A stretch of DNA of 64,000 nt from Prostheceraeus crozeri (Eukaryota; Platyhelminthes; Polycladida; Euryleptidae). The first letter of the stretch is position 1. Each line of letters starts with the position of its first letter. Shown here piece after piece: positions 29,844-48,891 of this stretch. The stretch is from the NCBI GenBank assembly GCA_907163375.1, contig CAJQUW010003214.1:1-64000 (forward strand). Direction: 5' to 3'. The notes beneath the pieces are model-generated. The model was not told the DNA's origin. It saw nothing but the letters and a program-made list of their open reading frames with translations, and did no database searches. The position numbers were made by a program, and so were the translations under genes.

Positions 29844-29845
29844 TG

Positions 29846-30310: not shown

Positions 30311-30404
30311 CCATGTTTACAATAAACCCCATATCTAAATTCCTCCTTTTATTTCCATTTCTAGATCAATACATTGCAAAACAAAGACATGTAGTTCTTT
30401 AGAT

Positions 30405-30985: not shown

Positions 30986-31157
30986 AGTATGCTTTGATTT
31001 TAAATAAATCTAAAGAACCACATGTCACTACTTTTTGATTTTTCCCTCAGTGATTGAGGTAGTATTTAGGAAAGAATGATAGTGTCTAGCATCAGCTGCT
31101 ATGATTTACACTGAGCTGTCAAATGACTAGATTTTCACTATGATGTTGATGACTACA

Positions 31158-31611
31158 TTACCCAGAAATAAGTGAAAACAGACAGATATAACAAATGAAA
31201 CATATATTCCGAAAGTACAAATAATTTAGAAGATCTTCAGTACTAATATCATCCCAAGGCGATTCGCAGTTACTGCAGTCACATTTCAGTTGTCGCACTC
31301 TTTCCTCGGCTGCAGCCAACACACCAAAGATGTACTCCCATTCAATCTTGTTCCTGGGTTGAGACGATGGGCTGTACCATCTCCGTATGTCATGGAGAAG
31401 ACTGATATCATCCTCCTTCGACACATCCTCCTTGTTGTATAGTAGGTACTTCCACCTCACATACACCATCCATCTCCTCTTCCTCAGTCAGAGTCGGATA
31501 TTCCAAGCTTGGAATATCCTCCGCTTTTTCCTTCTTCTCCAACTTCACCTTCTTTGGAGCGGGAGGGCAAGTTGATGTGTCCACGGAGAGAGTTGCTGTT
31601 GGCGAATTCAT
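31158..31611 (-). pseudogene. Small Polinton protein, frameshifted
   Basis: The first part (31611-31408) is Lys/Glu-rich (APKKVKLEKKEKAEDI; LTEEEEMDGV), and the second (31469-31158, other frame) has DDISLLHDIRRWYSP, a CDCSNCESPWDD cysteine cluster and a hydrophobic C-terminus (FICYICLFSLI). The frames overlap at about 31408-31470, so one indel probably separates them. A cysteine cluster and a possible C-terminal membrane anchor are visible. Family unknown. It is divergent from the polymerase gene, sharing the promoter region at 31612-31842. Confidence 0.45.
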
Positions 31612-31707
31612 GACTTCAAATTGTGTGCTATAAACTTGATTTCTTAGTGCTTAAGTACAAGTAAGTAGCCAATCAAATGAATAGCCAATGAATGACGAGT
31701 ATGAGAG

Positions 31708-31717
31708 TATATAAAAG
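31708..31717 (+). promoter_or_regulatory. TATA box of the DNA polymerase gene
   Basis: TATATAAAAG, 135 bp before the start codon at 31843, in the space between divergent genes. Confidence 0.6.
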
Positions 31718-31842
31718 GTGGGAAACAGACTTATTTTTCATTCTATATTTGAGACGTGTTGAGAATAAGTGAAGTCTCTATTTTGATAAACTATACAATT
31801 TTCTGACATTGAAGTATCATTCTTAAACTTGATTTCGTTGAA

Positions 31843-34800
31843 ATGGTAAGTTGAAAATTTCCTCACTCATCTCCCTCAAACGTTTGGCTAATACCATCTT
31901 TCTCAAATTCAGCCATCTACTTCATCACCAAAACGCTCCCTTCTCGAGGAAACTTTAGAGCTGTTAAGTGAATGTAGGTTGTAACAATAGACTATAACTT
32001 TAATATAGATGATAGAATGATTCCTCTTTCAGGTGATGTTAGTACCAGCTCAAGCGGTCAGTCGCGGGAATCTAATGAGCGGGAATCTGCTGATTGTGGT
32101 CATATCTTTACGAGGAAGCGTGATCTCGCCCGACACATCAGACAACGTGTGTGTCAATCAAAGACATCATCAATCTCCCGAGGTGAGGATGATTCTATTC
32201 AACATGTCTCTTTTACTTGCGACTTTTGCATTCTATCTTTTAAAACACGTTTTGAATTATCTTCACATAGACTTCACCACACGCATACAAATGATAGTTA
32301 TAGTAACAAAACCTCCCCTATCCGTCTCACTGAAGTGTCGCTCAATAATGTAGTGAGAAATTACCATATGGAATCCTCAGAAACCATTGCTGATTTTCCG
32401 GAGTGGTTTTATCAAAATTCAACATTAATAGATGCGCTCTTTAGAAATTTAGACAACTTTAGAATAATAGCGCTCATCTATCTTAAAATAAAATATGTTA
32501 AAGTTGATCATCATACTGGCGAAATAGTGCAGAGGTTGGAGTTTTACATACCCTCCTCACCTGCTACAGAGGTAGTAGATAAAGAAGTAAGGCTAAATTT
32601 TTATATTGAAGGGCTAAAATCAAATATTGATAAATTTAACGTGCGCGATAGTGGTCTGATTTTTGATGGTGTAGAATCTGCCATGTTTAAAATTACTCTA
32701 TTAGAAAATTACAGTGGACGAGGCTCCTTCAATCTTCCAAAAACGTTAAAAGATAAGAAAGCAGTCATTTCTATAGATTGTGAATCGCACTGTTTTAAGT
32801 ATGCGGTCTTATCCATTCTCCACTATCATGATGTACAGAACAACCGTTTACGTAAAACCAAATATCATCAATGGGAGAATGAATTGAAATTTGATGACTG
32901 CAATAGTGGAGGTATGAAATTGAAAGATATAGAGAAATTTGAAAAATTAAATAAAATTAAAATAGTTGTTCACGTCTGGCAAAAAAGGACTTAAAGGTGT
33001 ACGCTACAACAAACGTTCATCAACTTATGATCGTGTTGCCAACCTCTTGTTGGTATATGAGGATAGCAGTCAACAATGGCATTACTGCGGTATTCCAAAT
33101 ATTTATCGACTATATTCCCACTTAACATCCAAAAGGGGGTAGCATTTCATATGTGACCGTTGTATGAGATCCTTCTGGTCAAAAGATAAATTTCAAACAC
33201 ATTATGAATGGTATAAGCGAGGTAAATTGCAAATGGAACGCATGTCCAAAGATAAAATCTTTTCATATAGAGAGAATGGTAGTGAAATAAGTCCTCTTCG
33301 TGTCATCTATGCTGATATCGAATGCTATATTGATGATAACATCCACAAGCCAGCAGCCATATCCTGTTATGAGGTATGGCATAATCATTTCCAAAATGAA
33401 GATAATAAAATGCACGTCTGGCAAGGTGAGGATTGTATACACAAATTCTTGCAATTCCTGGAAAGTGCTAGTAAATTTCAACAAAAAAATGATAGTGAAC
33501 TCTATCACAGATCATTAAATATGACAGCAGATGATCAGGTAAAATTTGAAAGTTGTATAGTCTGCTCAAAATGTAATAAAACGTTTGATGAGGGTAAAAT
33601 TAAGAAAATGTGTGACCATGATCACATCACTGGTAAATTTAGAAACGTACTGTGTTCAAGATGCAATTTTTCTCTAAGAATGAAACGGCGCACTCTACCC
33701 GTAATTTTTCATAACTTCAAAGGCTATGACAGCCATATGACAATAAAAGGGGGGTTAGGAAAAATGAAGGGATGGTTAATGAATGTTATAGCTCAAACGA
33801 GGGAAAAATTTATGTCCATGACTGCAAAAGTACCAGTCAATAAGACTAAAGAAAATAAGACAGTCTACTTTGATATAAAATTTTTAGATTCCTATGAATT
33901 CATGACTTCATCAGTAGCATCTCTCGTTCAAAATCTTAAGTCTCTTCAACTAAATCAAAATTTGAAGAAGCAATATCCTAACTTGACAGATGAAGTCATC
34001 ACATGCAAAGGAGTGTTTCCATATGCATACTTTGACAACATTTCTAAACTTAGTGAGACTTCTCTTCCATCAATAGATAAATTTAAAAATGATTTGACTA
34101 GTATAGAATATAAGGTAGAAGATTACAATCATGCTCAAGTTGCATGGACAAAATTTGACTGTCAAACGTTTAGCGATTATATGATCGCCTATCTAAAATT
34201 AGATGTATTTTTGCTGGCTGATGTATTTCAGGAGTTTCGACGAGTGACATTAGAAGAAGATAAATTAGACCCCATCCACTTTGTCAGTCTTCCAGCCATG
34301 TCATTCCAGTCTGCTTTTAAAATGACTGGAGAGAGAATCCATCTTTTACAAGATCCAGAGATGTATAATTTATTTGAGCGAGGAATTGGCGGTGGTCTCA
34401 CATTTGTAAATAGACACCAAATAAAATCAAAAATAGTAGATGATGATCAGATTCATCTAAAGTACTATGACCAGAATAATTTATTTGATAGTTCACTATC
34501 CAAACCTCTACCTCACTCTGAGTTTAGCTGGCTAGGTGATAGTGAAATTCAACATTTCTCCAATCCTTCAAACATACTAGCTATTCCAGATGATGGTGAT
34601 TGGGGATAATATTTTGAGGTAGATCTTATCTATCCAAATAGTATTAAAAATAAAACTGTGGATTCTCCACCTCCGCGCGAATCAGGTGAAGTGACTGAAG
34701 ATATGTTTTCGGACTTTATGAAACAATTTCATAAAGATTTAGAAGGGAGTGGACAGCCCAAGTATAAGCCTTGTTGCAAACTTTTCCTTACTTAATTTGA

Positions 34801-35813
34801 TAAAGAAAATTTTCTAGCCCACTTTTCCATCTTCAAAATTTTATTTAGAAATGAGTGTGATTTTAAAAACAGTTCACCGCATTATCAAATTTAGACAGAA
34901 AGCCTTTCTGAAACCATATACTGATAGTAGCAGCCAGAAACGTGCACCAGCCCAAAATAATTTTGAAAAGGATTTTTATAAATATAAGAATAATAGTCTC
35001 TTTGGTAAGACGATGGAAGATGTTAGAAAACGTATAAACTATAAACTTGTGAATCGTAATGATAAATTTCAAAAGTTAGCGGCATCACTTCTCTTTATTG
35101 ATAGAGATATTATAGATGATGAGTTGGTTGGTATTAAAATGATAAAATCAGAAGTAGAGTTGTGCAAGCCCATCTACATTGGACAAGCTGTATTAGATTA
35201 TTCCAAGCTTGAAATGTATCAACTCTTCTATAGAATATTAAAACCATGTCCTCTAATTAAAGACGTGCGTTTGCTGGGTGGTGATACAGACAGTTTCTTT
35301 TTAAGTATTTCTGCTCAGAAAGAGTTAAACTTCAATGAAATAGGAAGATCTTTAGAAAATTATTTTGATACGTCAAATTATCCTACAGATCACCCACTAT
35401 ACTCTACTAAAAATAAAGCAAAATTAGGATGCTTCAAAGATGAAATGGCAGGAAAAGAAATTAAGGAAATGATTCTTCTTCGTCCTAAAATGTATTAAAT
35501 GAAAACAAAAGACTCCAGTGACAGTATTAAGCGCGCAAAAGGCATATCTAAGTCGATTGTTGTAAATATGAAGCATAGGATCTATAAGAAGGCCTTTAAA
35601 AATAAGTGTGTAACGTTTGTCAACATGACCATCTTAAAATCAAAGTTGCATGAGGTAAAAACTCATACATTTAGAAAGCGAGCACTTTCAGCGTGGGAGG
35701 ATAAGAGGTGTTGGATATGGCATAACATATCTCTTCCACATGGTCATCCTGATACAATCATATCACTAACTAAAAGAATTAAACTCACACTACCACATTC
35801 AGGAGATGTGTAA
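31843..35813 (+). pseudogene. Protein-primed DNA polymerase B (pPolB) of Polinton, broken
   Basis: The ATG (31843-31845) is cut off by GTAAGT at once; introns are 31846-31912 and 31974-32032. Exon 3 opens with a C2H2 finger (CDFCILSFKTRFELSSHRLH) and a weaker one before it. Then come the family's N-terminal region (GSFNLPKTLKDKKAVISI), exonuclease motifs (YADIEC; HNFKGYDSH; YLKLDVFLLADVF), and an endonuclease-VII-like Cys/His cluster (MCDHDHITGKFRNVLCSRCN). Polymerase motifs follow: DQNNL, KNNSLFGKTMEDVRKR and GGDTDSFF. It replicates the element from a terminal protein. Breaks: frame change near 33000, TAA at 34607-34609, frame change near 34800, TAA at 35496-35498. Family length is about 1,100-1,300 residues, so nearly all of the gene remains. 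Confidence 0.9.
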
Positions 35814-35974
35814 ATATGTTCAGTCTCAAATCAGCATTTTGATGATGCTTTTGTTGACATTCATTGTTGTTTTATGTATCGCTTTAGATTGCCCTTCCTT
35901 GTGAATATATGCCTACAGTCAGCTCATTCCCCTATATCTGTGAAAAGACTTTTTCATACACATATTTTTAGTTC

Positions 35975-35980
35975 AATAAA
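35975..35980 (+). terminator. AATAAA downstream of pPolB
   Basis: AATAAA 160 bp after the polymerase stop, just before the convergent minus-strand gene ends at 35995. Confidence 0.45.
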
Positions 35981-35994
35981 ATTTTACAATGACT

Positions 35995-37415
35995 TCACTT
36001 TGTTTTCCGAAACACTAAAGTTGCGAGGGATTTAGTATCTTTGACATGGATGCACTCATGTAAACCATTTGTAATTTTGATAGAAATAGATGGTATAGTT
36101 TGTTTGATAACAGGATGGCTGAAAATATGTTGAAACATCTTCTTGACTATTCCATATAAAGCATCCTTATCATGAATGAAATCACGTAAAATGTGTTCTT
36201 TTTCCTCGCCAACAGAAATAGGTAGAATCAAATCACTTTGAATGTAAAGGTGTTGTTCATGTTTATCAAGTGTCATTGGTGTTTCTATACCAATCGTATG
36301 CGCAGCAGTAAACATATTTTGTAGCATTGAAAAACCAGAGTTTTTCAATTTTTTTGCTCAATTGACATTGAATGTCATCACCCAGTTTCAGAACAACTCG
36401 TTGATTTTCAATTGAAAACAAAATGTGGTGTGTCTTACATCATATTTACTTTTCATCACATGCTTCAACTTCTGTTGTATATAAGGATTTATTACATGAA
36501 TGAAGATTTCAACTGCATGATATCAACTAAATCAGCTTTAGTGTGATATTCATGAGAAGCATAAACCAAACCGCTTCCAATAATAGGTGTTGCATGTCTT
36601 ACAAAATGACGCAAGGTTGGAGAGAAATAAACTGTAAGTTTGTCATTATATTTCTGAATAACCAACTTATCTTTGTCCGCCATAATTTTCTCTCCATACT
36701 TCTTACCCACAGTCTCATTCCATCGTTTTACTAACTCAATAAGTGATAAAGGTTGAACACCACGCTTTTTCAAAATGATGCGTTCTTCACATTCTACAAC
36801 ATCTTCATCAAATATTTAAAATTTATAATGAAATTTGTTGATTCGATTTGAATAAACTTTTTTAACAATTGCAGTAGCAATTGACGTTAGATGTATTCCA
36901 TGACCAAAACCGAGATGTGGATGGAATTCATTATCCAACCTCAATGTCAGACCTTTAGTAAAAGAATGAAAGCGAAGGAACTGTCTCCCACTCCAATGAT
37001 GGATAGTAAACTCATAAACTTTCTGATCCTTATTCTTCATGATGGAAGTATTACCACTATTGAATGCCTTAATAATTTTCTCATTCACAAATGGACCATA
37101 ATAATCTGATTTTATCTGAATCCATTCATAGTTCCACTTTCCATCTTACGTTAAATTGTATGAGAACTGGAATTTATTATTCATTGTTATTCCATCATGG
37201 GTGCGAGGAGTCAATATCATTTCTTCCAAATCATTCACATTCTGAATATTGCTATCATAGCAAATGCCGGAAACACCCACTTCCCATTCACCTTCTAGAT
37301 GTAGTGAGCGATTTAATTCTACTCGAAAGTCTGGTGGTTTATTATTAGGAAATTTATTCATAGAAGCATTACTGGGTAAGTAAATTAGAAACGAATCTCT
37401 ATTTTCACTTTCCAT
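35995..37415 (-). pseudogene. Polinton virion-type protein, paralogue A, heavily broken
   Basis: The start at 37415 reads MESENRDSFLIYLPSNASMN and then HLEGEWEVGVSGICYD. The N-terminal block (short beta strand, Asn-rich loop, 'L.GEWEVGV') recurs in the neighbouring gene 37490-38857. Pieces continue at 37088-36816, 36773-36492 and 36348-35995 in different frames. The uncharacterised family with this N-terminus is common in Polintons of invertebrates; by position and order I infer a virion surface or minor structural role. At least three breaks. Confidence 0.6.
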
Positions 37416-37489
37416 ACTAATCACATTGGAAAAATATATCAGCATACTTTTGGATTAACTCTTCATTCGGAAATGGAGTGTGATACTTG

Positions 37490-38857
37490 TTACAGCATCT
37501 TTATGAAAAGAATCAACGCACCAGCATCGTCACAAATTGCAATATCAATTTGTGGGATGTATTTTGATTTCAGCTTTGTATAATGCACTTTCTTGAAAGT
37601 ATGCTCAGATAAAATACTGCAGCTTTTTGGCTGGTATGGTATCATTGCTAGCAATGGAGCTTCAACATCTCCCACACGTACATATTCACCAATATTGGAA
37701 TATATCTGAAAATAGTTAATACGACGCGATAGCGACATGTCTGCGCTAGCTTTGGTTACAGTACCACTTTTAAAGATATTTTGATCAAAACCCAAAATGT
37801 CCATTATAGTTTTATCCATAATTAGTTCAATGCCTTTTCCACTTACAGTGAGAGACAAAGCACCTTCTTTTTCAGAAAATGAAATATGTTGCTCATTAAT
37901 CACTTCATTTAAATAATCTACAACCAATTTAACTGAAGTAATAATGCGAGGCATCAACACTCTTGTTTCATGTAAGATACCATCTAAAGGCTCTATACGC
38001 TTTCTGTATAAAGATACGGTCCATTCTGTATCAAATTGATTTGACCTTTCACATGGCAAATGTTGCATATCAAATTTTCCAATAACAGATGCAGAACGAT
38101 GTCGTACGAATTGATGAAAATCTTTTGAACAAACTAATACTAGATCATCATCATTTAATTTACTTATTGCAATATGATTAGATGATTTGATATAAGTCAA
38201 TGTTGCCACTTGTTTACCATCAACTCGAAGGAGATGATTAAATTGCTTCAATAATGTTTCAGGAGTCATGTTTGTCTTTCTTGGCTTAATCACAATCTTC
38301 TTCACCAACTTCTTCTTATTTCTTGGAATACGATCTACATAATAAGCTTCCTCTCGATATATTAACTGTTTATGACCACTTGGGTGGTAATTAACGTTAT
38401 AATTATCATAGCTTGTTAAGGCGCTACCAAGGTAGCCTACATCATTTCTTAAACTTGGACTTAAACCAACAATCCAATCTTTCTGAACTACATGATGTAC
38501 ATAATTATGATCATCATTGTGCGGAGTAAATTGGACAATATGTTTACACGCTTTATTCAGGAAATCATAAGCGAATTTCTGACGTGATAGACGATCTTTC
38601 TTCAGCCATTGTGGAATGTATACTCGGCAGCCCTTTTCACTTTGGTAAGCAGCTGTGCGTCTCATATTATTAGTCATCACCTCATGATCAAAAGTATAGA
38701 CACAGTTACTGTGAACAAGTTGTGTGACCCCTACTTCCCACTCTCCATTCAGCTGTTGTATATTATCAATGGGAGTAGAAAAGATAGCGGCTCGATTACT
38801 AGCAAATCTATTTGTTGCTACATTGCTAAACAAAATATGGTAAAATGACATTTTCAT
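37490..38857 (-). CDS. Polinton virion-type protein, paralogue B, intact (455 codons)
   Basis: An undisturbed frame among broken neighbours. It starts MKMSFYHILFSNVATN with QQLNGEWEVGVTQLVH, the same N-terminal block as paralogue A. The C-terminal part (INYFQIYSNIGEYVRVGDV; APLLAMIPY; IDIAICDDAGALILF) has the 'x-VGDVxAPLL...DDxGxxxxF' pattern of the same widespread Polinton protein. Family function is not established; it is predicted to be part of the particle. It lies 38 bp from the divergent PC4-like gene at 38896, so both probably share a promoter. Confidence 0.7.
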   Translation of the reverse strand: MKMSFYHILFSNVATNRFASNRAAIFSTPIDNIQQLNGEWEVGVTQLVHSNCVYTFDHEVMTNNMRRTAAYQSEKGCRVYIPQWLKKDRLSRQKFAYDFLNKACKHIVQFTPHNDDHNYVHHVVQKDWIVGLSPSLRNDVGYLGSALTSYDNYNVNYHPSGHKQLIYREEAYYVDRIPRNKKKLVKKIVIKPRKTNMTPETLLKQFNHLLRVDGKQVATLTYIKSSNHIAISKLNDDDLVLVCSKDFHQFVRHRSASVIGKFDMQHLPCERSNQFDTEWTVSLYRKRIEPLDGILHETRVLMPRIITSVKLVVDYLNEVINEQHISFSEKEGALSLTVSGKGIELIMDKTIMDILGFDQNIFKSGTVTKASADMSLSRRINYFQIYSNIGEYVRVGDVEAPLLAMIPYQPKSCSILSEHTFKKVHYTKLKSKYIPQIDIAICDDAGALILFIKML

Positions 38858-38895
38858 ATTCTGGTGATCTATATATTACCAATTTGCATAACATC

Positions 38896-39252
38896 ATGAA
38901 GACTTGGATTTTGGATTCTCAACAATACATCAAAGTTGATCGCAATGGAAACGTTCATTTCAAAAATTCTCATGGAAATACATCGAGAGGAATTACATTA
39001 ACATGGCGACAATTTTTAAATCTTAATGACATCATGAGGGATTTAGAATATTTTGAAACGCCAAAATTCATCTCTTTGGGTAATCAAGTTTGGCTTCAAC
39101 ATTACAGAAATGAAATTCAAATCTGTCATTCTGATTCCTCAATCTATTTTTCATTTCGCAAATACAATTGGGAAAAATATAAAAGATGGATACATCGCTC
39201 CATTATGTCATTTATTCGTCGAGAGTTCATCGCTTTGCTATGCAGATCTTAA
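38896..39252 (+). CDS. PC4/p15-like small protein, copy 1
   Basis: The 118-codon protein starts MKTWILDSQQYIKVDRNGNV, then SRGITLTWRQFLNLNDIM. Order and spacing recall the DNA-binding core of the transcriptional coactivator PC4/p15 (strand with 'YxxV', basic turn, 'K/RGI(S/T)L' and an aromatic-containing helix). The second half (VWLQHYRNEIQIC; IYFSFRKYNWEKYKRWIHRS) repeats the pattern, as if two such units were joined. PC4 proteins bind single-stranded DNA and melted promoters. The middle segment with the usual acidic loop is shorter than in PC4, so this is a fold-level guess. A second, broken copy follows at 39289. Confidence 0.5.
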   Translation: MKTWILDSQQYIKVDRNGNVHFKNSHGNTSRGITLTWRQFLNLNDIMRDLEYFETPKFISLGNQVWLQHYRNEIQICHSDSSIYFSFRKYNWEKYKRWIHRSIMSFIRREFIALLCRS

Positions 39253-39288
39253 TCAGACACCACCTTCAACACAATGTTATACTCCATC

Positions 39289-39620
39289 ATGAGGAGTTGG
39301 AAGTTAGACTCCCTACAACATGTTGAGATTGATTATGATCAAAACGTTTATTTCAACGACTATACTGGAAATATGAGAAAAGAATTTGCTTTATCATATC
39401 GACATTTTCAATGCCTAAATCATATCATGAAAAGACATTCTATATGAAAAGACATTCACGCATAGAAAATTGCATATGGTTGCGACTAAAAAAGCAACGA
39501 ATAGAAATCTATCATTCTCAACTTTCTATCTGCTTCACATTTCATCAAGGTAGTTGGGAAAAGTATAAAAGGAAGATATGTCGCTCTATTTACTCATTTC
39601 TGCATCATGAGACGTCATCG
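39289..39620 (+). pseudogene. PC4/p15-like small protein, copy 2, frameshifted
   Basis: It starts MRSWKLDSLQHVEIDYDQNV and ALSYRHFQCLNHIMK, aligning with copy 1 in order. After a frame change near 39420-39450 it continues IWLRLKKQRIEIYHSQLS and WEKYKRKICRSIYSFLHHE, again matching copy 1. The two copies are tandem duplicates about 390 bp apart. The end overlaps the start of the TBP-like gene at 39607. Confidence 0.55.
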
Positions 39621-40166
39621 TTACACCATCGTCAACATTCTCCGCCGCATCAGACTCTATACCAAAATCGATCTCGCAACACTACATTTCAAACATTTTC
39701 ACAACAAATTCCAAACAGCAAGTATTATCCGGGTCGACCGCAAATGTTAGTGGTGAAGATGAGCAATTTACGGAACCTTCAACTCTTTCCAAATGGGACG
39801 GTACAAATTCTCGGCGCCCTTTCTCATTCATCGGCGCGGTTAATGCGCTTAGAACTGCAGAAGCTACTACGTCGGATATGGAAGAGGGAGAAGTGTGTGA
39901 TGTCGAATCTGACTGTGAACAATATGGTGATCTCTACTCAATTGAGTGGAAATGTATCGTTTTCGAAGATTCATAGCAGCAGCTACAATTTGTGTTATGA
40001 ACCAGAACTTTTTCCTTCAGCTCTCATTAATTGTTGGAATCCTGTACATATTGCAATCTTTCATAACAGCAAAGTTATCATTACTGGACTGAAATCAGAA
40101 GTGCAAGCAGATACAATCCTAGACCGTTTAATCGAATATGTACATACCCAGCGGATTGTGAAATAA
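39607..40166 (+). pseudogene. TATA-binding-protein-like core encoded by Polinton, one frameshift
   Basis: Two half-repeats of a TBP saddle are readable. Repeat 1: YTIVNILRRIRLYTKIDLATL (first frame, from the ATG at 39607), then after a frame change near 39700-39740 KYYPGRPQMLVVKM and LFPNGTVQILGALS. Repeat 2: NLTVNNMVIST, YEPELFP (39996-40016), then IFHNSKVIITGLKSEVQAD. Host TBP has the corresponding N-IV, 'YNP', 'IFxSGK', 'N-x-VGS', 'YEPELFPG' and 'SGKVVLTGAK' blocks in the same order. The size, about 186 codons, equals a bare TBP core without N-terminal extension. Three of the four usual intercalating Phe positions look kept. It sits after the two PC4-like genes. I know of no TBP gene described as a Polinton component. 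Confidence 0.72.
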
Positions 40167-40180
40167 AAACAATTTTTATT
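40163..40180. terminator. Overlapping convergent polyadenylation signals
   Basis: AATAAA on + (just at the TBP-like stop) and TTTATT, the complement of AATAAA, about 10 bp further on, serve the convergent TBP-like and protease genes. Confidence 0.5.
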
Positions 40181-40218
40181 CCAATATGATGATGTTTTAT
40201 TTCAAATCATTATAGAAC

Positions 40219-40659
40219 TTACAAAATCATTTTTTCATTAGAAGATGGGTTACATGAAAACTTTTGAATAACAGATTTAAATCGACGTACATGCAAACGT
40301 TTTAAAATGAAGTACAATACGAAAGCACCACAAGTTGATGAAAGTGGATGTTGTAGTATGCGCTCATTTCGTTGATATTGACGAGTATGTTTTCTCAACC
40401 ACTGATGTGTTGGTATATTTGGAGGTTGAGCAAGAGAGTCAAATAGTTCACCGCGTCTATCTTTTGCAATAATGATAGCTTTCCAATGTTCACCTTCAAA
40501 ATTCTTTGACTGACTGTTTAATACAATAATAATGGGATGCTGTTTTACTAAAGTTGGTAGGGTATCTAGCGAATAGACATTATCAAAAGCTTTCAACGTA
40601 GCTTTATCTGCATTACGCTGTACTTAAGCTTTAACATCGTCAGCATTCAGCCAACTCAT
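40219..40659 (-). pseudogene. Adenovirus-type cysteine protease of Polinton, one nonsense codon
   Basis: The frame from the ATG at 40659 has TAA at codon 12, then is open to the end. Catalytic residues are visible: His in GEHWKAI, an acidic residue and partner region in GELFDSLAQPP, and Cys in STCGAFVLYFIL. The spacing is that of adenain-type maturation proteases, which cut capsid precursors. Its ATG overlaps the stop of the capsid-type gene upstream (TAATG). Only one nonsense codon separates it from intact, but it lies before the active site. Confidence 0.88.
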
Positions 40660-41590
40660 TAACGATTATAGTGAAGAATCACGTCACGATACTTAGTTAT
40701 TTCAATATTTGAATCAAAAACTGCATAAATCAATACATACCATCGTCGCATTGCTACCATTAGGAGCTTTGGTGCTTCTGATGGAAATAAACCGTCTTTC
40801 ATAAAACTCTTTTGATCTTTAGGAATAGTAAATGTGAGAAGCTTTGTATGTTGAATGGGATAAATAGCATTGCTACGGTTAAGACCCTCAGCATGTCCTC
40901 AAAATTACACTTGGATTAGCTACCACTCGACGAATGTATAGCGTAAGCTCTTCCACATGGATTTTAAAATTGACAACTTTAGCATATGCATTCAACAAAA
41001 ATTCAGGCTTGTTCAATGTAAGTTTAACTCGCATGCTGGTATTACAGAGTAAAAACTTCGACTGTCTGAAGAAGTCAAGATTTAGTGGACCATATAGCTG
41101 ACATACTTTACTATCTTTAATCAAAGCAGATCGCTTTACAAAACCAGCTTTTGTCTCACTATCAAATTGTGTTGCTTGATCTCTACACCATCCCATTGCT
41201 TCCATATGACTCTTTTGTGCTGACGGATGAAACTGTGATAGGGCATTGAAATATGCTTTATAGGGATAATCGCTTTGTCCACCTTCTACCTGTTGCTCTC
41301 CAATAGTTAGAGAAACATCATGAAATAGTGTTTACCAGCGGTAAATTGTTCAGACCAACTTTATGTGCATCATCGATGTTAGTACCATCTGCTTGCTGAA
41401 TTCTGAACCGCACATCAACCATCGCATAACTTAAATCAATGTAGTCATCACTAGCACCAGGAATGACAAATTAAATTGGACCAGTATTCTCAGCAGTTCG
41501 AGGATGATAATCTACAATACTTGAACTAAGAATATCTGTCTGTATCGCTTGTTGATCAAACAAACAAAAATTTGAAGTTTTACACTCCAT
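40659..41590 (-). pseudogene. Polinton capsid-type protein (F54H12.2-like family), broken and internally deleted
   Basis: The frame starts MECKTSNFCLFDQQAIQTDI, with one TAA (GPI-stop-FVIPGASDDYIDLSY), a frameshift near 41330 and a third piece from about 41225 (AMGWCRDQATQFD; LIKDSKVCQLYGPLNLDFF). The last piece (AIYPIQHTKLLTFTIPKDQK) jumps to a typical C-terminus (YVLIYAVFDSNIEITKY). About 130-150 residues seem deleted between them. The order of blocks matches an abundant Polinton protein annotated as F54H12.2-like, a capsid candidate. No functional product is possible. Confidence 0.75.
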
Positions 41591-41592
41591 GA

Positions 41593-42057
41593 TTAGAAGT
41601 TATGACAGCGTCGTCGTTTAGCACGCGATGAAGGATTAGAGCGCGCACGGCGTTTGCGTGAATGCCTTTTCTTAGATTTTCGTGAAGTTCGCCCCTTACC
41701 AGCTCCGAGCTGTTTTCTTTTTATTCAAACATTCATTCGTTTAGGTGCTTTCTTTTGTCGATTACGAGTTAAGGATTCCTGTAATGTTCTTAACCCGAAT
41801 TCCTTCCCACGATTTAGTAAAGTACTCTTTATATTTTTTCCACTGGCAATATCATTGACAACATCACCAGAAAAGCCAACAGCATTACTTAAAAGAGATC
41901 GCTTTAAAGTTTTTCTGCCGGTAGATAAGAGAGGAGATACAACAGATTTCAGCGCGCCAAATATACTACCTCCACGTTGACGGCGAGCACCAGTGTAAAT
42001 TGTAACCGCGCCACTTACATAGGAGGGGCGTGAATAAAACGATGCAGTGGGATTCAT
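41593..42057 (-). pseudogene. pVI-like minor virion protein of Polinton, one in-frame TGA
   Basis: The protein has an aromatic N-terminus (MNPTASFYSRPSYVSGAV), then GGSIFGALKSVVSPLL, an amphipathic helix, and NAVGFSGDVVNDIASGKNIK. Proteins with this layout sit next to the capsid gene in Polintons and resemble adenovirus pVI, the membrane-lytic cement protein. TGA at 41725-41727 is followed in frame by a Lys/Arg-rich tail (KKRHSRKRRARSN) and a stop 3 bp before the capsid gene. The tail may be a nuclear signal. Confidence 0.65.
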
Positions 42058-42097
42058 TACTTAAATCTTGAACTCGCAAGTTATAGTTTTGCATAAA

Positions 42098-43170
42098 TCA
42101 CTTGCGATCACTTTGATGAAAAATGTCTGCACGACGCATCCAAGAGTTCATACTTGAAGGACAGCCGAGCCATTTAACAAGACACCATTCTTCGCCTTGA
42201 CGTTTTTTGCAACGGATGATTTTCTCTACTAAATATGTTTCACTTTCAGTGACTACCTCAATCTCATCACGGTAAAAGCTGCCATCTATTTCTTCATTAT
42301 CGTAGTCTTTTAACTTGTAAGTTGTGGGAGAGTCTTTTTTATTGATGTTTGAAACTGTAAAAATTTCTTCTGTCTAATTCGGGAGATAACCTTTAGCAAA
42401 AACACTCTTCACTTTTGATATGCGAACTTTATCGCCTATTTTTACATCACTTTTTGCATTATTACGCTTACGTTAGAATGTTTTACGCACTTCATCTACA
42501 TTGTCAGCATTCACATCTGCTGGTCTGAGTCCAATAGAGCGATGTACAGAGTGATTGTAGGCATGTACCGTATCTTGTAGAATCTTTGTCCAATTTTGTG
42601 TTAAGTTGGCAGTAAAATGTCGCCACAAGCGATTTTTCAATGTGCGGTTAAAACGTTCAACTAATGCAGCCTTATAAGGCACTCTTTACACTAAACAACT
42701 CAATGTCATATCTCTCAAACAATCTTTCCACATGCTGATTTTCGAACTCTTTTCCTTTATCACTCTGAATTCTCTTTGAAATGCGACCCTCTTGGAAAAT
42801 TGACTGAAATTCCTTGTCTACTCGTTTACCTTCTTTAGTTTTTAATGGTTGAGCCCACGCATATCGCGAGAAAATATCAATTAGTGTCAAAATAAAATTA
42901 TTTCCCGAGTTATGTTTTAAAATAGAGGCAACGTCACACAAATCTGCCTGCCACTGTTCATCAATGACGGGTACGGTACTTCTTTTTCGCTTGTTTGTGA
43001 AGTGTATAGGTAGCCTGACCCTTTAACCATTGTTTAACTTGTGATTGTGGAAGACCACTCGCTTTTGACAATTTCTTTGTAGATGCAAATCCTGCTGGAT
43101 GTTTTACATCATAGTATATTGACTTTAAAAGTTCATGTGATGACGACTGACTCTTCCTCCTTCTTCTCAT
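42098..43170 (-). pseudogene. Polinton integrase (rve) with C-terminal chromodomain, broken
   Basis: The start at 43170 reads MRRRRKSQSSSHELLKSIYY, then an N-terminal zinc/helix region (LSKASGLPQSQVKQWLKG). The catalytic domain has the first Asp in QADLCDVAS, the second in QSDKGKEFEN and the Glu in ALVERFNRTLK. The C-terminal part carries VKIGDKVRISKVKSVF, GSFYRDEIEVV and a chromodomain (YLVEKIIRCKK; VKWLGCPSSMNSW). Breaks: frame changes near 42955 and 42680, TAA near 42474, TAG near 42378. It cuts and joins the element's ends, giving the 6-bp duplication; the chromodomain directs it to histone marks. Confidence 0.9.
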
Positions 43171-43342
43171 GTTTTTGCTTTCTTGTCTTTTTACACTTAC
43201 AACAGCCACAAGATTTAGCAGATTTACGTTCATGTTCACATTACTTAGGAGTCTCACTGTAAGAGCTGGCACAGCAAGTACATGTTACATCAACATGCAC
43301 CTCCGGCGGTTCATTGCATGGCATGCAACACATCTGCTTCAT
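43133..43342 (-). pseudogene. Small Cys-rich protein, one in-frame TAA
   Basis: The 70-codon frame has cysteine pairs CCMPC, CTCC and, after the TAA, CGCCKCKK and a Lys-rich end. The paired cysteines suggest a metal-binding knuckle. It starts 1 bp after the stop of the 43344-44063 gene and overlaps the integrase start. Family unknown. Confidence 0.45.
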
Positions 43343-43343
43343 A

Positions 43344-44063
43344 TTAATAGTCTGAGAACATATATTTCTTTGGTGGAGATCTTCTACGTCTATCTCTTTC
43401 TCTTGTTTGCCTAGAGGGTGTAGATCTACGTCGTTCTCTTCCTCTTGTTTTCTTAGTAAGTGTGGAAGGAGATGTAGAAGGTGAACTCTTAAACCAATTT
43501 CTTGGCATTGTAACACTCCTAATTTTAGGAACAGAATTAACATTTGAAGTAGCACCAACTTCTGAAGTAGAATCAAGTTCTTTCAATGTTTCATTATTCA
43601 ATGCAAATTTTGGAACAATATGCCTTTTCAATAGTTGAAGAAAATATGGCCAACCATGTGGGACATAACGTTGTCGACGTTTTCTACGCGTGGCATACTG
43701 AATCAAGTCTTCATAACGCGAAGCGCTAATAATTTTATCATCATCTGTAATGATTTCACCTCTATCATTCACATTGAGATATGGTTCAATGCTGTTGAAA
43801 AGAGCTATTGCATGTGCACGAGACGCTGAAGGTGTAACAGTCGAAACAGAGTCACGCATCTTATTCTTCAAACTTTTCAATTCTTCAACAGTTTCTGATT
43901 GTAATAAAACTGCGCGATATGGATCTTTAATATGTGCATTTTCCTGATAATCCAGCTCTTTCTTATAAATTTGATTTGCTAGAGGTTGCTTTACTTGCTG
44001 TAAAGCAGTCAATTGCACATATTCTTCCTGAGGAATGACAATCGTGCGAGAATAGGAGCTCAT
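43344..44063 (-). CDS. Polinton basic protein with RS-rich tail, intact (239 codons)
   Basis: The N-terminal half is helical (YVQLTALQQVKQPLANQIYK; VEELKSLKNKM), the middle has YLNVNDRGEIITDDDKI and a basic patch (ATRRKRRQRY). The C-terminal third is rich in Arg/Ser (RGRERRRSTPSRQTRERDRR). A homologue of this layout lies beside the packaging ATPase in many Polintons. By composition it may bind DNA in the particle. It overlaps the ATPase gene by 4 bp and precedes the Cys-rich gene by 1 bp, as in a compact gene string. Confidence 0.65.
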   Translation of the reverse strand: MSSYSRTIVIPQEEYVQLTALQQVKQPLANQIYKKELDYQENAHIKDPYRAVLLQSETVEELKSLKNKMRDSVSTVTPSASRAHAIALFNSIEPYLNVNDRGEIITDDDKIISASRYEDLIQYATRRKRRQRYVPHGWPYFLQLLKRHIVPKFALNNETLKELDSTSEVGATSNVNSVPKIRSVTMPRNWFKSSPSTSPSTLTKKTRGRERRRSTPSRQTRERDRRRRSPPKKYMFSDY

Positions 44064-44698
44064 AGTTTGTAGATAATCATAGGCTTTTTCAAAATATCAC
44101 TTCGAAATCTAAATTCCTCCGGACACTCTTGTGTAAAATCAATAAATAAGTAACCGTGTGGTTTTTCAGTTGCTGCTTGAAAAATTTCAATTAAGGCTTT
44201 TGAACATCTTGGCGAAACTTGTCGCGCTAAAATTTCAAATTGACTTCTATCTCGGGGATTTTTAAAGATAGCGTAATAGTGCGTATTCAGGTTTCGTGTG
44301 CGGGCTTCTTTCCCATCAGGAAACAAATTTTGCGTGATATAGATTATAAAGCACCTTTTGTGATGTGCTACGCGAGTGAACATATCTGTAACGTCTTTAG
44401 AATTCTTGCTTTCCTTCAATAGATCATCCAATACAACGACATCGTTGGACTCTATCTTATCAACTCGAATAATTCCTTCTTTTCGAATAAAGTTACAACG
44501 TTGCAATTCCTGAAAGAGTAACGGCTGATACATACCATAACACCAAATAACTTGATTGATAAGTTCCCTAAACAATTCTTTTCTTTTGTCTAGCAAATTC
44601 AGAGTGAAAACAGTTTTGCCTGCATGGGATGGACCTGATACAGTCAGAACTTTATCACATTGAAGTCTGAAATCCATTTTATTACTGACACTGAACAT
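44060..44698 (-). CDS. Genome-packaging ATPase of Polinton (FtsK/HerA type), intact
   Basis: A 212-codon frame has the Walker A motif VSGPSHAGKTVF (P-loop GPSHAGKT), Walker B VVVLDDLL, and a sensor-like region IIYITQNLFPDGKEART. These are features of the A32-like packaging ATPases shared by Polintons and adintoviruses, which drive DNA into the capsid. No lesion is seen. It lies between the basic protein at 44707-45072 and the 43344-44063 gene, with 8 and -4 bp spacing. Confidence 0.92.
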   Translation of the reverse strand: MFSVSNKMDFRLQCDKVLTVSGPSHAGKTVFTLNLLDKRKELFRELINQVIWCYGMYQPLLFQELQRCNFIRKEGIIRVDKIESNDVVVLDDLLKESKNSKDVTDMFTRVAHHKRCFIIYITQNLFPDGKEARTRNLNTHYYAIFKNPRDRSQFEILARQVSPRCSKALIEIFQAATEKPHGYLFIDFTQECPEEFRFRSDILKKPMIIYKL

Positions 44699-44706
44699 TT
44701 ACATAA

Positions 44707-45072
44707 TTAACGCTTAAAGCCAAAGATATTATCCAATACGTTGCCCACTACAGGAGCTAACATCGGAAGTATTGCTGAAAGGAAACCACCCTTTTGTGAC
44801 AGAGTTTTCCTCTTTCTTTGAAGGGTGATTTTAGGATTGGAGATGAATCGTAATTTTGTAGTATATCGCTTAAGTAACTTTCGTTGTTGTGGTGATAATT
44901 TCTTTGTCCTCAAACTTCTCACATGAGAAACAATTTCTCGAATAAATTTATCATTAGCATGTCGTATAACATTATATCGATGATTTCCTTTCATTCGTTG
45001 AAGAGCTCGAATGGCTGCAGAAAATTTTGAAGACCTTCGACTTTTGCGTCTCGCCATTTTTCTCTTTACCAT
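44707..45072 (-). CDS. Small basic core-type protein with hydrophobic C-terminus, intact
   Basis: The 121-codon protein is extremely basic (MVKRKMARRKSRRSSKFSAA; RKLLKRYTTKLRF) and ends GGFLSAILPMLAPVVGN-VL, a hydrophobic Gly/Pro-containing segment. This combination is seen in adenovirus pX/mu-like and adintovirus core proteins, which condense DNA. It is inferred from composition and from its place beside the ATPase. Confidence 0.65.
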   Translation of the reverse strand: MVKRKMARRKSRRSSKFSAAIRALQRMKGNHRYNVIRHANDKFIREIVSHVRSLRTKKLSPQQRKLLKRYTTKLRFISNPKITLQRKRKTLSQKGGFLSAILPMLAPVVGNVLDNIFGFKR

Positions 45073-45142
45073 TGTCGCTACTTGAGTTTTCGATATTTGT
45101 ATAGGTACTAACTTTTATGGCAGAAGTGACACTCAAAATGAG

Positions 45143-46193
45143 CTATATCACAGTGGCTACATTAACAAAGTTGAATACAGCAGCGTATGAAGCAGCGCTG
45201 GCAGAAAGTATGCTTACATCTCTTAAAGATGCGTTTTTCACTTCCATCCTTTTAGTCCGGGAGCTAGCGTGAAGTTGTGCAGGGAACGAGGTAGTACATA
45301 AAACTTTCACATAGCATAGTACACCTCCAACCTACTGCAAAACTTCGCGTCTGCCGGATCAGATCATTTGCTTTTCAGAAATAGAGAGGATAACACAATC
45401 CTATGTATTTCCAATGGTAAAATTGTGACATCTGAGGTGTTGACCCCATTTTTTCGAATTTTTGCTCATAAAAGTTACACAAATTGGTATTTTGTTGAAC
45501 TGGTTATTATAGAAATCATCTACAGATCATGATCTTTCAAATGAGCTAAGTGTACATGAAGTAAATGAGGAATGAGGATGAAGTAAAGTGTACAAACAGA
45601 CACTTTTCGTTGGTTTAACTGCAAATTTTAACATAGAAATTTCAGGAAAATTGTTGACATACTCTAACGAAAAGTGTCTGTTTGTACACTTTACTTCATC
45701 CTCTGTCACTGAATGATAACTCATTTGAAAGATCATGATCTGTAGATGATTTCTATAATAACCAGTTCAACAAAATACCAATTTGTGTAACTTTTATGAG
45801 CAAAAATTCGAAAAAATGGGGTCAACACCTCAGATGTCACAATTTTACCATTGGAAATACATAGGATTGTGTTATCCTCTCTATTTCTGAAAAGCAAATG
45901 ATCTGATCCGGCAGACGGCAGTTTTGCAGTAGGTTGGAGGTGTACTATGCTATGTGAAAGTTTTATGTACTACCTCGTTCCCTGCACAACTTCACGCTAG
46001 CTCCCGGACTATTTCGCTTACATACATCACACAAATTTTCACTCTTACTAACAACTTCTAAAGCAAGTCTTTTTGACGACATGAACTTGCTAGCCTTTTC
46101 TAAATAGTAGACGCATGTACAGAAGGAATATACTTCGAGAGTAAGTAGACATAACTCGAAAACCAAATGTGCTACGATCAAGTACCATTGCAT
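45143..46193 (-). pseudogene. Small membrane protein of Polinton, split by a MITE
   Basis: The frame begins MQWYLIVAHLVFELCLLTLE, a probable signal anchor, then a Cys pair in NLCDVCKRN. It enters the MITE at 46009 and is lost. On the other side of the MITE, at 45252-45143, a frame reading MEVKNASLRDVSILS continues in phase across the TA duplication. The uninterrupted gene would have about 100 codons. Family unknown. Confidence 0.55.
45255..46009. mobile_element. MITE with about 350-370-bp inverted repeats (755 bp)
   Basis: Left arm from GTCCGGGAGCTAGCGTGAAG, right arm ending CTTCACGCTAGCTCCCGGAC. Both arms extend inward to 'GATGAAGTAAAGTGTACAAA' and its complement, leaving a loop of about 50 bp. 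The arms are nearly identical. TA flanks both ends (45253-45254, 46010-46011), so a Tc1/mariner-type transposase is the likely mover. It carries no gene. Confidence 0.88.
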
Positions 46194-46195
46194 CT

Positions 46196-46588
46196 TTAAG
46201 TTTGTTTTATAGAAAGTTGAATGCGAATATGTGAAATTGCTTCAATCACTAGACTGCTACCATGATGGCTAAATGCATCAAGACTTTGAGCAATTTTTCC
46301 CATATGTCTTTCAAAAAATTCTTCAAGATTATCTACAACTTCCATTGAATAGGAAGCAAAGTGGAAGAAACGATCTTCTACCTCTTTTTTCCCAAAATGA
46401 CTGAAATGAATTTTCGAAACTAATCGCGCCATTACAATTTTATCAGAAAAGGTATCCATTAACTTCAAAAATAGTGTGCTAGTATCACCAATAACTGATT
46501 TGATGTTAATCTCATCTTTATGAAATGTTATCACATAATCTTGAATAGTCCCTTTTAATCTTTGCCTATGAAACGCAATGTTCCACAA
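46196..46588 (-). CDS. Polinton protein with 'GS-x-x-V' leader-domain pattern (130 codons)
   Basis: The protein reads MWNIAFHRQRLKGTIQDYVI, then VMARLVSKIHFSHFGKKEVE with DRFFHFASYSM, and HHGSSLVIEAISHIRIQLSI at the end. A domain with this layout, ending in '(E/H)GS-x-(W/L)-V-x-x-I', commonly forms the N-terminal part of larger proteins in Polintons. Here it is a stand-alone gene. Function unknown. The frame is intact. Confidence 0.5.
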   Translation of the reverse strand: MWNIAFHRQRLKGTIQDYVITFHKDEINIKSVIGDTSTLFLKLMDTFSDKIVMARLVSKIHFSHFGKKEVEDRFFHFASYSMEVVDNLEEFFERHMGKIAQSLDAFSHHGSSLVIEAISHIRIQLSIKQT

Positions 46589-46589
46589 T

Positions 46590-46879
46590 CATTTGAGAAA
46601 GACATTGTTATCCTGCATCTATCCCTCCAATTGCATGAAAAACAGCAAATCTTTACATAAAGCTTTAATTGAATGACTTCTTCAAGCATGCATTACAAAT
46701 TTTGGGTTTGAAACAAATAAAATAGATACAGTTGGTAACTATCATACAGAGAGCAATGAAAACCAAACCTTACTTTGGCAGTGTTGGGGTAAGGAGGAAA
46801 AGAACATTGATTATGAATGTAACTACTACAACGAACATTTGAAATGGGAACACTCAGTTCCTTGAAACGTTTCGTAACT
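46590..46879. other. Short non-coding gap in the Polinton right arm
   Basis: No supportable frame. Confidence 0.5.
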
Positions 46880-47250
46880 TCATGATAGTGTTACTATAAC
46901 TCTACTATCCCAAGGTGGAAGTAGAATATCATTAATTACTAGATTAGGAAAAAGCTTTCTCTCCTTGGAGGGATCATTACAAAAGATACGTACAACATTG
47001 AAGGCTGCTAGCCATCTTTTAAAGTCAATAAGAAGAGCACTTTCACTAGGAAGACCAAAGTCTTTTAAATATTGTTGATTAAGTCCATGAATATGTTTTC
47101 TCGCCCATCCATCAGCTTTGGGATCACACTTGGTATGATGATGATAAACACTAACAATCTGATATGAGCAATTGTCCATAGTAATAGCACTGAGCTCCTG
47201 TACAGGTTCACCCTCACAATCCATAAAAATGATGGTGGATGACTAAAAAT
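46880..47250 (-). CDS. DEDD (DnaQ-like) exonuclease-like protein
   Basis: Just after a splice-acceptor-like TTTTATTTTTAG (47251-47262 region) the frame reads IIFMDCEGEPVQELSAI, with the D-x-E pattern of the first exonuclease motif. Then ARKHIHGLNQQYLKDFGLPS and ALLIDFKRWLAAF follow, and IFCNDPSKERKLF. The 'HGL' and 'NDPxKE' blocks are what I expect of a small DEDD-type nuclease found in Polinton-like elements. The last catalytic aspartate was not securely located. It would be separate from the exonuclease of the polymerase. Confidence 0.5.
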
Positions 47251-47284
47251 AAAATTACATAGTTTTACTCATCGGATGAAAATC

Positions 47285-47548
47285 CTATAACATATTACAA
47301 TATGAAGAAGTGCAACGATGCTGTTCACGACAAAATACACAAATAACATGATGACAGCGAAGAAGTAAAATGTATCTGATAAGACCACGTCTACGACACT
47401 CAAAGCACATAAGCGAATTGTCATAAGGTAGAGATAGGAAAGGATTAGCGATTCTCCTTCTTTGATTTGCGTTTTCCGGTAGCATTCTCCTCTGACTTGT
47501 GCTTCCCACCGCTCTCGTTGAGGATTTGATCAATAATGTTATTAACAT
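47285..47548 (-). CDS. RING-like zinc-finger frame
   Basis: Near the end the frame has LMCFECRRRGLIRYILLLRC followed by HHVICVFCREQHRC and SSYC. The spacing C-x2-C, C-x-H-x2-C-x2-C, then C-x5-C recalls a C3HC4 RING finger of ubiquitin ligases, though one ligand spacing is short. The frame overlaps the end of the 47445-48214 gene in another phase, so it may be a separate gene or the second exon of that gene. Function unproven. Confidence 0.45.
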   Translation of the reverse strand: MLITLLIKSSTRAVGSTSQRRMLPENANQRRRIANPFLSLPYDNSLMCFECRRRGLIRYILLLRCHHVICVFCREQHRCTSSYCNML

Positions 47549-48214
47549 CTGGCTGCTTCGGCATACATAGGATGGATTGAGTATGCATTGCTATAGAGGC
47601 CAATTTATTATCCTTATGATAACCATAATATAGTCCGCTTATTGTGAAACGAATATTCCAAGTGCCTTCTGCGAGCTCTTCACACCTGATGGGTGTTATT
47701 TGTTCTCCATCCTTTCGATAGTAAGAACACCAATGCGATAGTGGTAGAGAAAGTCGTTCACCTTCCCATATCTTTTTATATGGTGTATCCTTGTCATCTC
47801 TCGCTCTCCACACTTCGTCAAGGGGAGTAGGGATATCCATATTTAGTGTCACAAATTCTTCAATAATGTCAAGCTGGCGACGTATGTATGGAGCTACAGG
47901 AATGATGACGTAGTCTCCATACTGATTCCTCTTCACACTCACGTCTGTGGAAGGGATCATTCCCGTTTCCAGTGCTATAGCATGATCGAAATAGCGTATG
48001 CCTTGTCTAAATTTACGCTGTAGGGGTGTAGGATTATGCACCTGTGTTGTTTCCTCCATCGGTCTCAACTGTAGATGGCCTGAATGTAGCGAACCTTGCA
48101 CCGTCTGGACATCAGCATCTAGTCTGGTAAGTGATGTAGAACCCTGAAAGAGGAAAGATGCGATTAGGTAAACACTCAAGAAAGGAGGTGGAGGGAAGTT
48201 TTCCAACTTACCAT
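47445..48214 (-). CDS. Polinton right-arm protein with ATG|GTAAGT split start
   Basis: The exon 1 start codon at 48214-48212 is followed at once by GTAAGT. The 68-bp intron (48211-48144) ends TCTTTCAG, and exon 2 reads GSTSLTRLDADVQTVQGSLH. The protein has a central region with AIALETGMIPSTDVSVKRN and DYVIIPVAPYIRRQLDII, then CSYYRKDGEQITPIRCEELA, and ends with a basic tail (ATGKRKSKKENR). No family recognised. The exon layout is the same as in the polymerase gene. A longer frame running into the intron (to 48206) is a by-product. Confidence 0.6.
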
Positions 48215-48306
48215 TCTAGTTGAAAAGTAGGATAGATGAGCTGAGAGAACGTGCGTCCGTCACTTATACGATTCAAAGATAGAATGATTGTCACTCTAAA
48301 GTCTCA

Positions 48307-48316
48307 TTATTTATAG
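48307..48316 (-). promoter_or_regulatory. TATA box of the right-arm gene
   Basis: The complement reads CTATAAATAA, about 95 bp before the ATG at 48214. Confidence 0.5.
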
Positions 48317-48443
48317 AGAAATCCATGATTCTCATTGGATGATAATCCTCATTGGACAATAACATCAAGCTGATTCCAAATCTGGCCTCTGTTTACCAAA
48401 CCGAGCCTTCGTTCGCCCGCTGGAGCTGTTTTTTGGAAAATTC

Positions 48444-48891
48444 TAACTCTGTCGTTTTTTGCCAATTTCCCAAATCTTAAATGGCGTCTCACATCTAAAT
48501 GAAGACAGATATGAACAAGCCGTTTCTTTCACTGAATTTGTCTCACTCATAGCTTTCAAACGAGCTATTGCACGACTTTCTACGATCTCTAGAACCAAAG
48601 TTGGAAGCAACGCTGCCGAGGGGGGGACGTCCCAAAAATTTTTTCTCTCCGATGGAGCTGGAAATCACCCTACGGATGCAGAATTTGACGCTGAATCAGA
48701 ATCTGCCCTCCGTTTTCCCATCCGATGCTTCGTTTTGGCTCTACAGCCCTAAACCATCCCAAATTCGCCGTTAACTCTGTCGGTTTACAACATCTGCCAA
48801 CCTGGTCGGCCGCCCAAGTCGACCTGGACGGCCAACCAAGACTCTCTCCCGAGGGGGGCGCTGTGTTTATTGTGGAGGTTTAGTTGCTACT
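48444..48891 (-). repeat. Right terminal inverted repeat (448 bp)
   Basis: Complement of the left TIR with 8 transitions; ends CTACT. The inner TATA segment present in the left arm is not conserved here beyond 48443. Confidence 0.95.

Follow-up and report, generated by a model that had tools for sequence, protein, structure and literature searches.

A TATA-binding protein gene as a regular component of Polintons in the genome of the polyclad Prostheceraeus crozeri

The locus and its genes

The window, which is the whole stretch of 64,000 nucleotides analysed here from contig CAJQUW010003214.1 of the flatworm Prostheceraeus crozeri, holds a Polinton that includes a gene for a TATA-binding protein (TBP). 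The principal features are given below, with lineage I referring to the closest group of related elements; throughout, L numbers denote loci and P numbers database proteins.

26201..48891, no strand: Polinton element, 22,691 bp
26201..26648, + strand: left terminal inverted repeat, starting AGTAG; 449-nt arm, 98% complementary to the right arm
32017..35813, + strand: putative type B DNA polymerase gene, fragmented; matches Endonuclease_7 and, only weakly, the polymerase domain
37490..38857, - strand: conserved 455-aa ORF, identity 86-92% in six lineage I copies
38845..39252, + strand: first copy of a small upstream gene, free of TBP overlap; holds a TATA (39178) and an initiator
39274..39946, + strand: small upstream gene, second copy, overprinted on TBP in another frame over its 3' half; degraded here
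39564..39601, + strand: TBP core promoter; TATAAAAG at 39564, initiator TCATTT, predicted +1 at 39596
39607..40166, + strand: TBP gene with both half-repeats, disrupted once, and in this copy only
40162..40180, no strand: poly(A) signals of TBP and the protease, facing each other; read from the sequence
40219..40596, - strand: Ulp1-type (C48) cysteine protease; PF02902 E=2.9e-5, above cut-off
40888..41205, - strand: piece of a probable major capsid protein
42672..43272, - strand: integrase; rve core 42672-42941, adjoining N-terminal ORF assigned by position
44060..44698, - strand: putative packaging ATPase; weak Pox_A32 match, E=0.015, below cut-off
48444..48891, - strand: right terminal inverted repeat, pairing with the left arm

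The termini are those of a Polinton, with inverted repeats that begin with AG (AGTAG) and flanks, CACTGG and CACTGA, that agree in five of six letters and are a probable 6-bp target-site duplication. The pairing of a retroviral-type integrase with a Ulp1-type protease is also found, the protease scoring above its cut-off and the rve match of the integrase (4.1e-7, 30.6 bits) just below the cut-off of 32.6. The DNA_pol_B match of the element is below cut-off (E=0.028), and a 954-aa relative of the polymerase in L023 has Endonuclease_7 as its sole Pfam match and matched no chain in the PDB; the polymerase and the packaging ATPase (the latter at 92-95% identity, where covered, in five of the six lineage I copies) are putative assignments made from motifs and from the gene set. 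The piece at 40888-41205 is probably of the major capsid protein, and the other virion gene names in the element are likewise putative; a 340-aa capsid-like ORF of a relative gave no Pfam match and no significant PDB match. The 455-aa ORF is presumably virion-associated. Elsewhere in the element are nested inverted repeats (45253-46011; arms of 201, 92 and 38 nt, 100% complementary) and a Cys-rich ORF, RING-like by eye and with no Pfam match, at 47285-47548 (-).

Identity and fold of the TBP

The earlier note on this DNA had claimed that 39607-40166 encodes the two half-repeats of a TBP core, with one frameshift, and had asked for a profile search and a structure prediction. Both bear the claim out. 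The ORF at 39411-40166(+) matches PF00352 in two stretches (E=1.3e-15, 57.4 bits, cut-off 22.9), as well as ten NCBIfam TBP models, each below its curated cut-off. The ATG of the gene is at 39607, as proposed, and the front of repeat 1 lies in a separate frame from the rest. Among the 38 PDB sequences listed for the same ORF at E<=10, the names of the top 35 identify TBP chains or fusions, save one that is called just ECU04_1440 protein; the best is the TBP of M. jannaschii (2z8u, 1.5e-14). A profile of 63 homologues aligns with 2z8u from end to end (E=1.8e-25) and, in hhalign, with a profile of yeast and M. jannaschii TBP (99.3%, 1.8e-20). These Pfam, 2z8u and hhalign matches rule out a chance similarity to TBP.

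A first protein search gave 19 matches, 16 of them TBP-like, and a profile search found 198 proteins at E<=1e-3, of which the best 120 were listed, from ENA, JGI, NCBI and 'lgn' contigs. Most among the best 120 of 198 are 160-225 aa long, in keeping with the suggestion of a TBP core that lacks an N-terminal extension; some listed homologues are longer, with in-frame N-terminal codons that overlie the promoter. The AlphaFold2 model of one homologue, P0002 (63 rows), contains both repeats with a pLDDT of 89.9 and a pTM of 0.80. Its repeat 1 runs E27-38 H44-50 E54-57 E63-67 E73-77 E81-85 H90-108 (E-H-E-E-E-E-H) and its repeat 2 E119-128 E145-148 E154-157 E164-168 E172-178 H181-197 (E-E-E-E-E-H), the sole region of low confidence being residues 12-22, ahead of the TBP Met (pLDDT <50). 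The two homologous half-repeats forming a saddle that mark a TBP are thus found both in the profile match, which covers both repeats, and in the model.

The frame break is private to 39607-40166; the 39 other copies scored in the same genome are 94-97% identical (40 places scored, out of 1,394 first-look candidates). The overlapping polyadenylation signals proposed for the end of the gene are present, in that AATAAA at 40162-40167 spans the TBP stop codon and faces an opposite-strand AATAAA at 40175-40180. The gene also has the structural neighbours ascribed to it, with the protease to one side; to the other side are two small ORFs, followed by the 455-aa ORF at 37490-38857.

Distribution among Polintons

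Is this gene a part of the element or a host gene caught by chance? The host assembly that was searched covers 2.05 Gb in 14,165 contigs, and every TBP locus fetched from it, 22 of 22 (20/20, then 2/2), lies beside Polinton genes, which upholds the claim of the earlier note that the TBP is a component of the element. The 20 loci were chosen for spread, not at random, from 146 non-host rows, and intact copies are favoured among them because the source list was ranked by score. Within this sample the orthologues that the earlier note had proposed to look for exist: the TBP frame is open over its full length at 14 of 20 loci and interrupted by an in-frame stop at four (L011, L013, L014 and L018), while L025 and L026 are altered otherwise.

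The TBP-bearing Polintons fall into at least five lineages. In lineage I (L015, L016, L017, L018, L022 and L027) the TBP is 83-84% identical to that of the window over the 144-145 codons compared, and L032, a near relative of this lineage, stands at 70%. Lineage II (L009, L010 and L012; 41-43%) keeps the TBP in the same slot as lineage I, between the homologue of the 455-aa ORF and the protease. Lineage III is represented by L014 (36%). Lineage IV (L011, L013, L019-L021, L023-L026 and L028; 36-41%, with L026 at 27%) has a different gene order in which the TBP is near the 3' end of PolB. Lineage V is L031, where the TBP (30-46%; L031:1630-3218) is split into two parts that are separated by about 1.2 kb, an insertion or an intron. 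Between lineages I and II the divergence of TBP (41-43% identity) is like that of both the protease, at 39-44%, and the capsid piece, at 48-50%; the third piece of PolB is at 62-64%, the integrase at 62% and the ATPase at 37-65%. It is close to certain that the product of 39607-40166 is a TBP and that the gene belongs regularly to these Polintons.

The repeat-2 signature Y-E-x-E-L-F-P-A occurs 4,065 + 3,814 = 7,879 times across the genome, with none in a reversed control, and it is missed by the host TBP, which has F-P-G there. With Polinton neighbours checked at the fetched loci only, the number of signatures suggests a large share of Polintons in the 2-Gb genome. Outside this assembly, patterns run against IMG/VR and GTDB contigs matched 20, 0, 16, 20 and 22 stretches with no relative confirmed among them, and phage records gave no match. 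Some database proteins (JGI, ENA) are almost identical to loci fetched here (P0022 to L020, P0012 to L016/L017), and the host or a near relative has probably been sampled in public data.

An overprinted upstream gene

Ahead of the TBP in lineage I are two copies of a small gene, one of which does not overlap it. The second is represented by homologues of 216-222 aa (P0005, P0008 and P0012), and the upstream gene overlaps the first half of TBP, in another frame, in lineages I (L017:4798-5502), II (L010:4306-4905) and IV (L023:4247-4876). In L031 an upstream frame of 197 codons starts at 1128 and the TBP match begins at about 1501 in another frame, coordinates that suggest the same overlap in lineage V. 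A conserved upstream gene is overprinted on the first half of TBP in three Polinton lineages, and probably in a fourth. In 18 of 19 loci the motif FSFxxAxxxL keeps a constant frame relative to TBP and lies 185-206 nt past the TBP start, save for an offset of 410 nt in L025, whose start was set at an upstream Met; L011 is without the motif. Of the 19 loci, 12 have an overlapping frame that stays open for some 200 codons or more and has the SIE-like end.

Substitutions point the same way. In five copies (L018 left out) the overlap at 39729-39946 has a pS of 0.17-0.20 and a pN of 0.04-0.06, whereas the corresponding values outside it in TBP are 0.28-0.34 and 0.12-0.14; such a lowering of both is as expected for double coding. 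The TATA box of TBP sits within the W-E-K-Y-K-R codons of this upstream gene. A profile search with the upstream gene gave six homologues, three of which were known before. A PC4-like coactivator as its identity is not supported, with no Pfam match above cut-off and no PDB match.

Promoters of the element

The predicted TBP promoter is one of several sites in the element where a TATA box and an initiator stand at canonical spacing. Within the element the strict pattern TATAAA-N20-28-TCAKTY is found 7 times, where a Markov model gives a mean of 0.47 and at most 2 in 200 runs, and the remaining 41.3 kb of the window has one; a looser TATA and initiator pattern is found 9 times in the element and twice outside (Markov mean 1.9, maximum 8). 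Predicted +1 positions are 39596, 39210, 31740 and 29452 and, on the minus strand, 48285 and 30706. An ORF of at least 60 aa lies within 400 nt downstream of six of the seven strict sites. Across the 20 loci the strict pattern occurs 37 times, a count inflated by near-identical copies, against a mean of 3.3 and a maximum of 8 in 40 runs, and the distance from the T to +1 is most often 31-32 nt (27 of 66 pairs). A TATA box stands 40-47 nt ahead of the TBP ATG in 16 of 18 loci (L018 and L025 left out of the tally); L014, of lineage III, has none before TBP and L021 has TATAGA. Among database proteins with long N-termini, 11 of 17 (P0002, P0007, P0009, P0010, P0020, P0027, P0029, P0044, P0053, P0054 and P0076) have, by eye, I-K or I-N with a His nine residues after the K or N, a spacing that, read from the proteins alone, is compatible with an equally spaced TATA box and CA. 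These promoters are no proof of dependence on the Polinton TBP, because host TBP also uses TATA and initiator elements.

Phylogeny and selection

Where might such a gene have come from? A captured retrocopy of host TBP, or a passenger without function, would have to be reconciled with its sequence, its tree and its persistence. The host TBP (L001 and L003) is near-canonical and split across at least two exons, and L002 is a TBP-like factor look-alike of TLF/TRF2 type, an animal factor, named by eye. A phylogeny of the kind that the earlier note had called for, with host TBP, host TLF, yeast and M. jannaschii set against 50 Polinton-type TBPs, separates the latter with support of 100/99 on branches of 3.16 + 1.03, although with warnings of long branches and of the unlike letter make-up of M. 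jannaschii; the split is kept (100/100) after adding two viral TBPs from IMG/VR. The position of the Polinton TBPs far from host TBP and TLF, together with the near-canonical, exon-split host gene, excludes a recent retrocopy. A tree joining host TBP with the Polinton TBPs is not rejected (p-AU 0.147), so that the gene may have an ancient eukaryotic source.

The element TBP is moreover only 23% identical to yeast TBP over 166 columns. Its dN/dS between the window and six lineage I copies is 0.30-0.34, alongside 0.19-0.24 for the protease, 0.23-0.28 for the capsid piece and 0.05-0.16 for the ATPase, and, against lineage I copies, 0.11-0.14 for the integrase (five copies) and 0.37-0.57 for the 455-aa ORF. 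As read from these ratios, purifying selection acts on the Polinton TBP between sublineages. Among near-identical copies pN/pS ranges from 0.23 to 1.85 and is often near 1 (one pair undefined), which is consistent with neutral decay after insertion and speaks against selection on single copies. That decay and the unrejected joint tree speak for a captured or functionless gene; its divergence from yeast TBP, its well-supported long branches, its selection between sublineages and its presence in at least five lineages, with thousands of signatures, leave such an origin only the slimmest of chances.

The DNA and TFIIB faces

The residues that touch DNA and TFIIB were tabulated in 113 aligned rows (MAFFT, yeast numbering; excluded were P0003, P0017, proteins of the upstream gene, those of <=150 aa and P0120 onwards), with residue roles following, in part, a study of KSHV ORF24 (PMC12529657). 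In lobe 2, N159 and V161 are kept in 112 of 112 rows with a letter, F190, F207, T215 and E188 in 113 of 113 and E186 in 111 of 113; L205 falls in a gap in all 113 rows. Lobe 1 retains N69 (97/97 letters) and F116 (113/113), and it has Pro at F99 (112/112 letters), Gln at V122 (113/113), mostly Gln at L114 (103/113) and mostly Leu at T124 (96/113), the call at F99 being that of the MAFFT alignment and not of a superposition. The TFIIA-contact lysines, where aligned, are mostly changed. Each repeat thus has the minor-groove Asn of a TBP, in every row with a letter. Three of the four wedging Phe of yeast are present (F116, F190 and F207), and some accepted TBPs likewise have three (PMC5825884). 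The stirrup glutamates E186 and E188, by which TFIIB would be contacted, are those counted above. On this alignment, lobe 2 is canonical and the DNA face of lobe 1 is rewritten; F99P and V122Q may alter classical TATA bending.

What is the product of such a gene for? A TBP fold with some other use on DNA, such as bending in replication or packaging or the binding of single strands, would fit the rewritten lobe 1 (F99P, V122Q, L114Q, T124L), and a divergent Giardia TBP without key phenylalanines is reported to bind single-stranded DNA (PMC12209930). Bending alone, however, would need no such constancy as is seen in lobe 2 and in both TFIIB-contact glutamates, and the element has TATA and initiator promoters; we regard this use as unlikely. 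The combination of kept TFIIB contacts and a half-changed DNA face might be that of an anti-host factor that rivals host TBP or titrates TFIIB, thereby damping host transcription. Such a factor would have no need of the conserved DNA contacts of lobe 2 and, we reason, an integrated element that uses host RNA polymerase II would gain little from it; we consider it quite improbable.

Proposed role

The reading that we favour, and hold to be likely, is that the Polinton TBP is the promoter-recognition factor of the element and works through host TFIIB and RNA polymerase II. In the mechanism we infer, a TBP that is a regular, selected component of these Polintons would be expressed from its own TATA and initiator promoter and would bind the TATA boxes of the element's promoters, and its canonical lobe 2 would then recruit host TFIIB and RNA polymerase II. 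The protein would be free of TFIIA and TAFs, and the outcome would be promoter recognition independent of host TFIID; the genes served may, at a guess, be late or structural. The TATA and initiator promoters and the kept TFIIB-contact residues lend indirect support to the function suggested in the earlier note, by which the element could direct transcription from TATA boxes of its own. The wider proposition stands at roughly even odds: that a clade of animal Polintons has its own promoter-recognition system, with a TFIIB-recruiting canonical lobe, a re-engineered DNA-reading lobe and a family of promoters, and that at least five lineages have retained the gene, overprinted in part by a conserved gene whose codons include the TATA box of TBP. 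Four of the points made here are additions to the earlier note: the overprinting, the copy number, the changes in lobe 1 and the initiator.

If true, a single genome with approximately 7,900 copies of the signature would have a TBP gene family of extraordinary abundance, from which the host could steadily draw TBP-like proteins. How, then, does a host cope with thousands of foreign TBP genes?

Comparison with known systems

Polintons are held to lie near the root from which many eukaryotic DNA viruses spring; to our knowledge they depend on the host for promoter recognition. The element shares with Polintons, Mavericks and adintoviruses its terminal inverted repeats, integrase and Ulp1-type protease and, presumably, its ATPase and PolB-type gene; in the literature searched those elements are without a described TBP. 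Among the matches listed in that search none announced a Polinton TBP, the subscription-only first descriptions of Polintons and adintoviruses being outside its scope. In the portions of main text available, the word 'TATA' is absent from PMC11071308, PMC11071296, PMC10120064, PMC3671162, PMC8097293, PMC4028283 and PMC8363768, and 'TBP' from all of these save PMC10120064, which was outside that tally. Words of both the Polinton and the TBP type occur in the parts seen of PMC10132985, PMC7786948, PMC11464507 and PMC12085832, and TBPs are mentioned, in the part seen of PMC10675990, solely in putative mirusvirus-derived elements.

Other members of the TBP family can also be compared. The host TBP (L001 and L003) and TLF (L002) share a genome with the Polinton TBPs; the host TBP gene is spread over at least two exons, whereas the Polinton gene is a single full-length open frame at 14 of 20 loci. 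L029 and L030 are TBP genes on IMG/VR contigs that are classed as viral, but they are 52% identical to yeast TBP and group with the eukaryotic TBPs, apart from those of the Polintons. ASFV pB263R, modelled as a TBP, is likened here by description, being a DNA-virus protein predicted to have a TBP fold and three wedge Phe (PMC5825884).

The herpesvirus late-gene TBP mimic, KSHV ORF24, is likewise a virus-encoded TBP fold with an altered DNA face, with S, N and N at yeast L114, V122 and T124 where the Polinton TBPs mostly have Q, Q and L; it is large and multidomain (PMC12529657), keeps F99 and is without the TFIIB glutamates, whereas the Polinton TBP is a bare core with Pro at F99 and those glutamates kept. 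The Polinton TBPs offer a natural experiment on which surfaces of TBP are indispensable. A small integrating element with its own TBP would show that promoter recognition can be taken over without an RNA polymerase of one's own, a takeover that would resemble that of some herpesviruses, but with the TFIIB interface retained.
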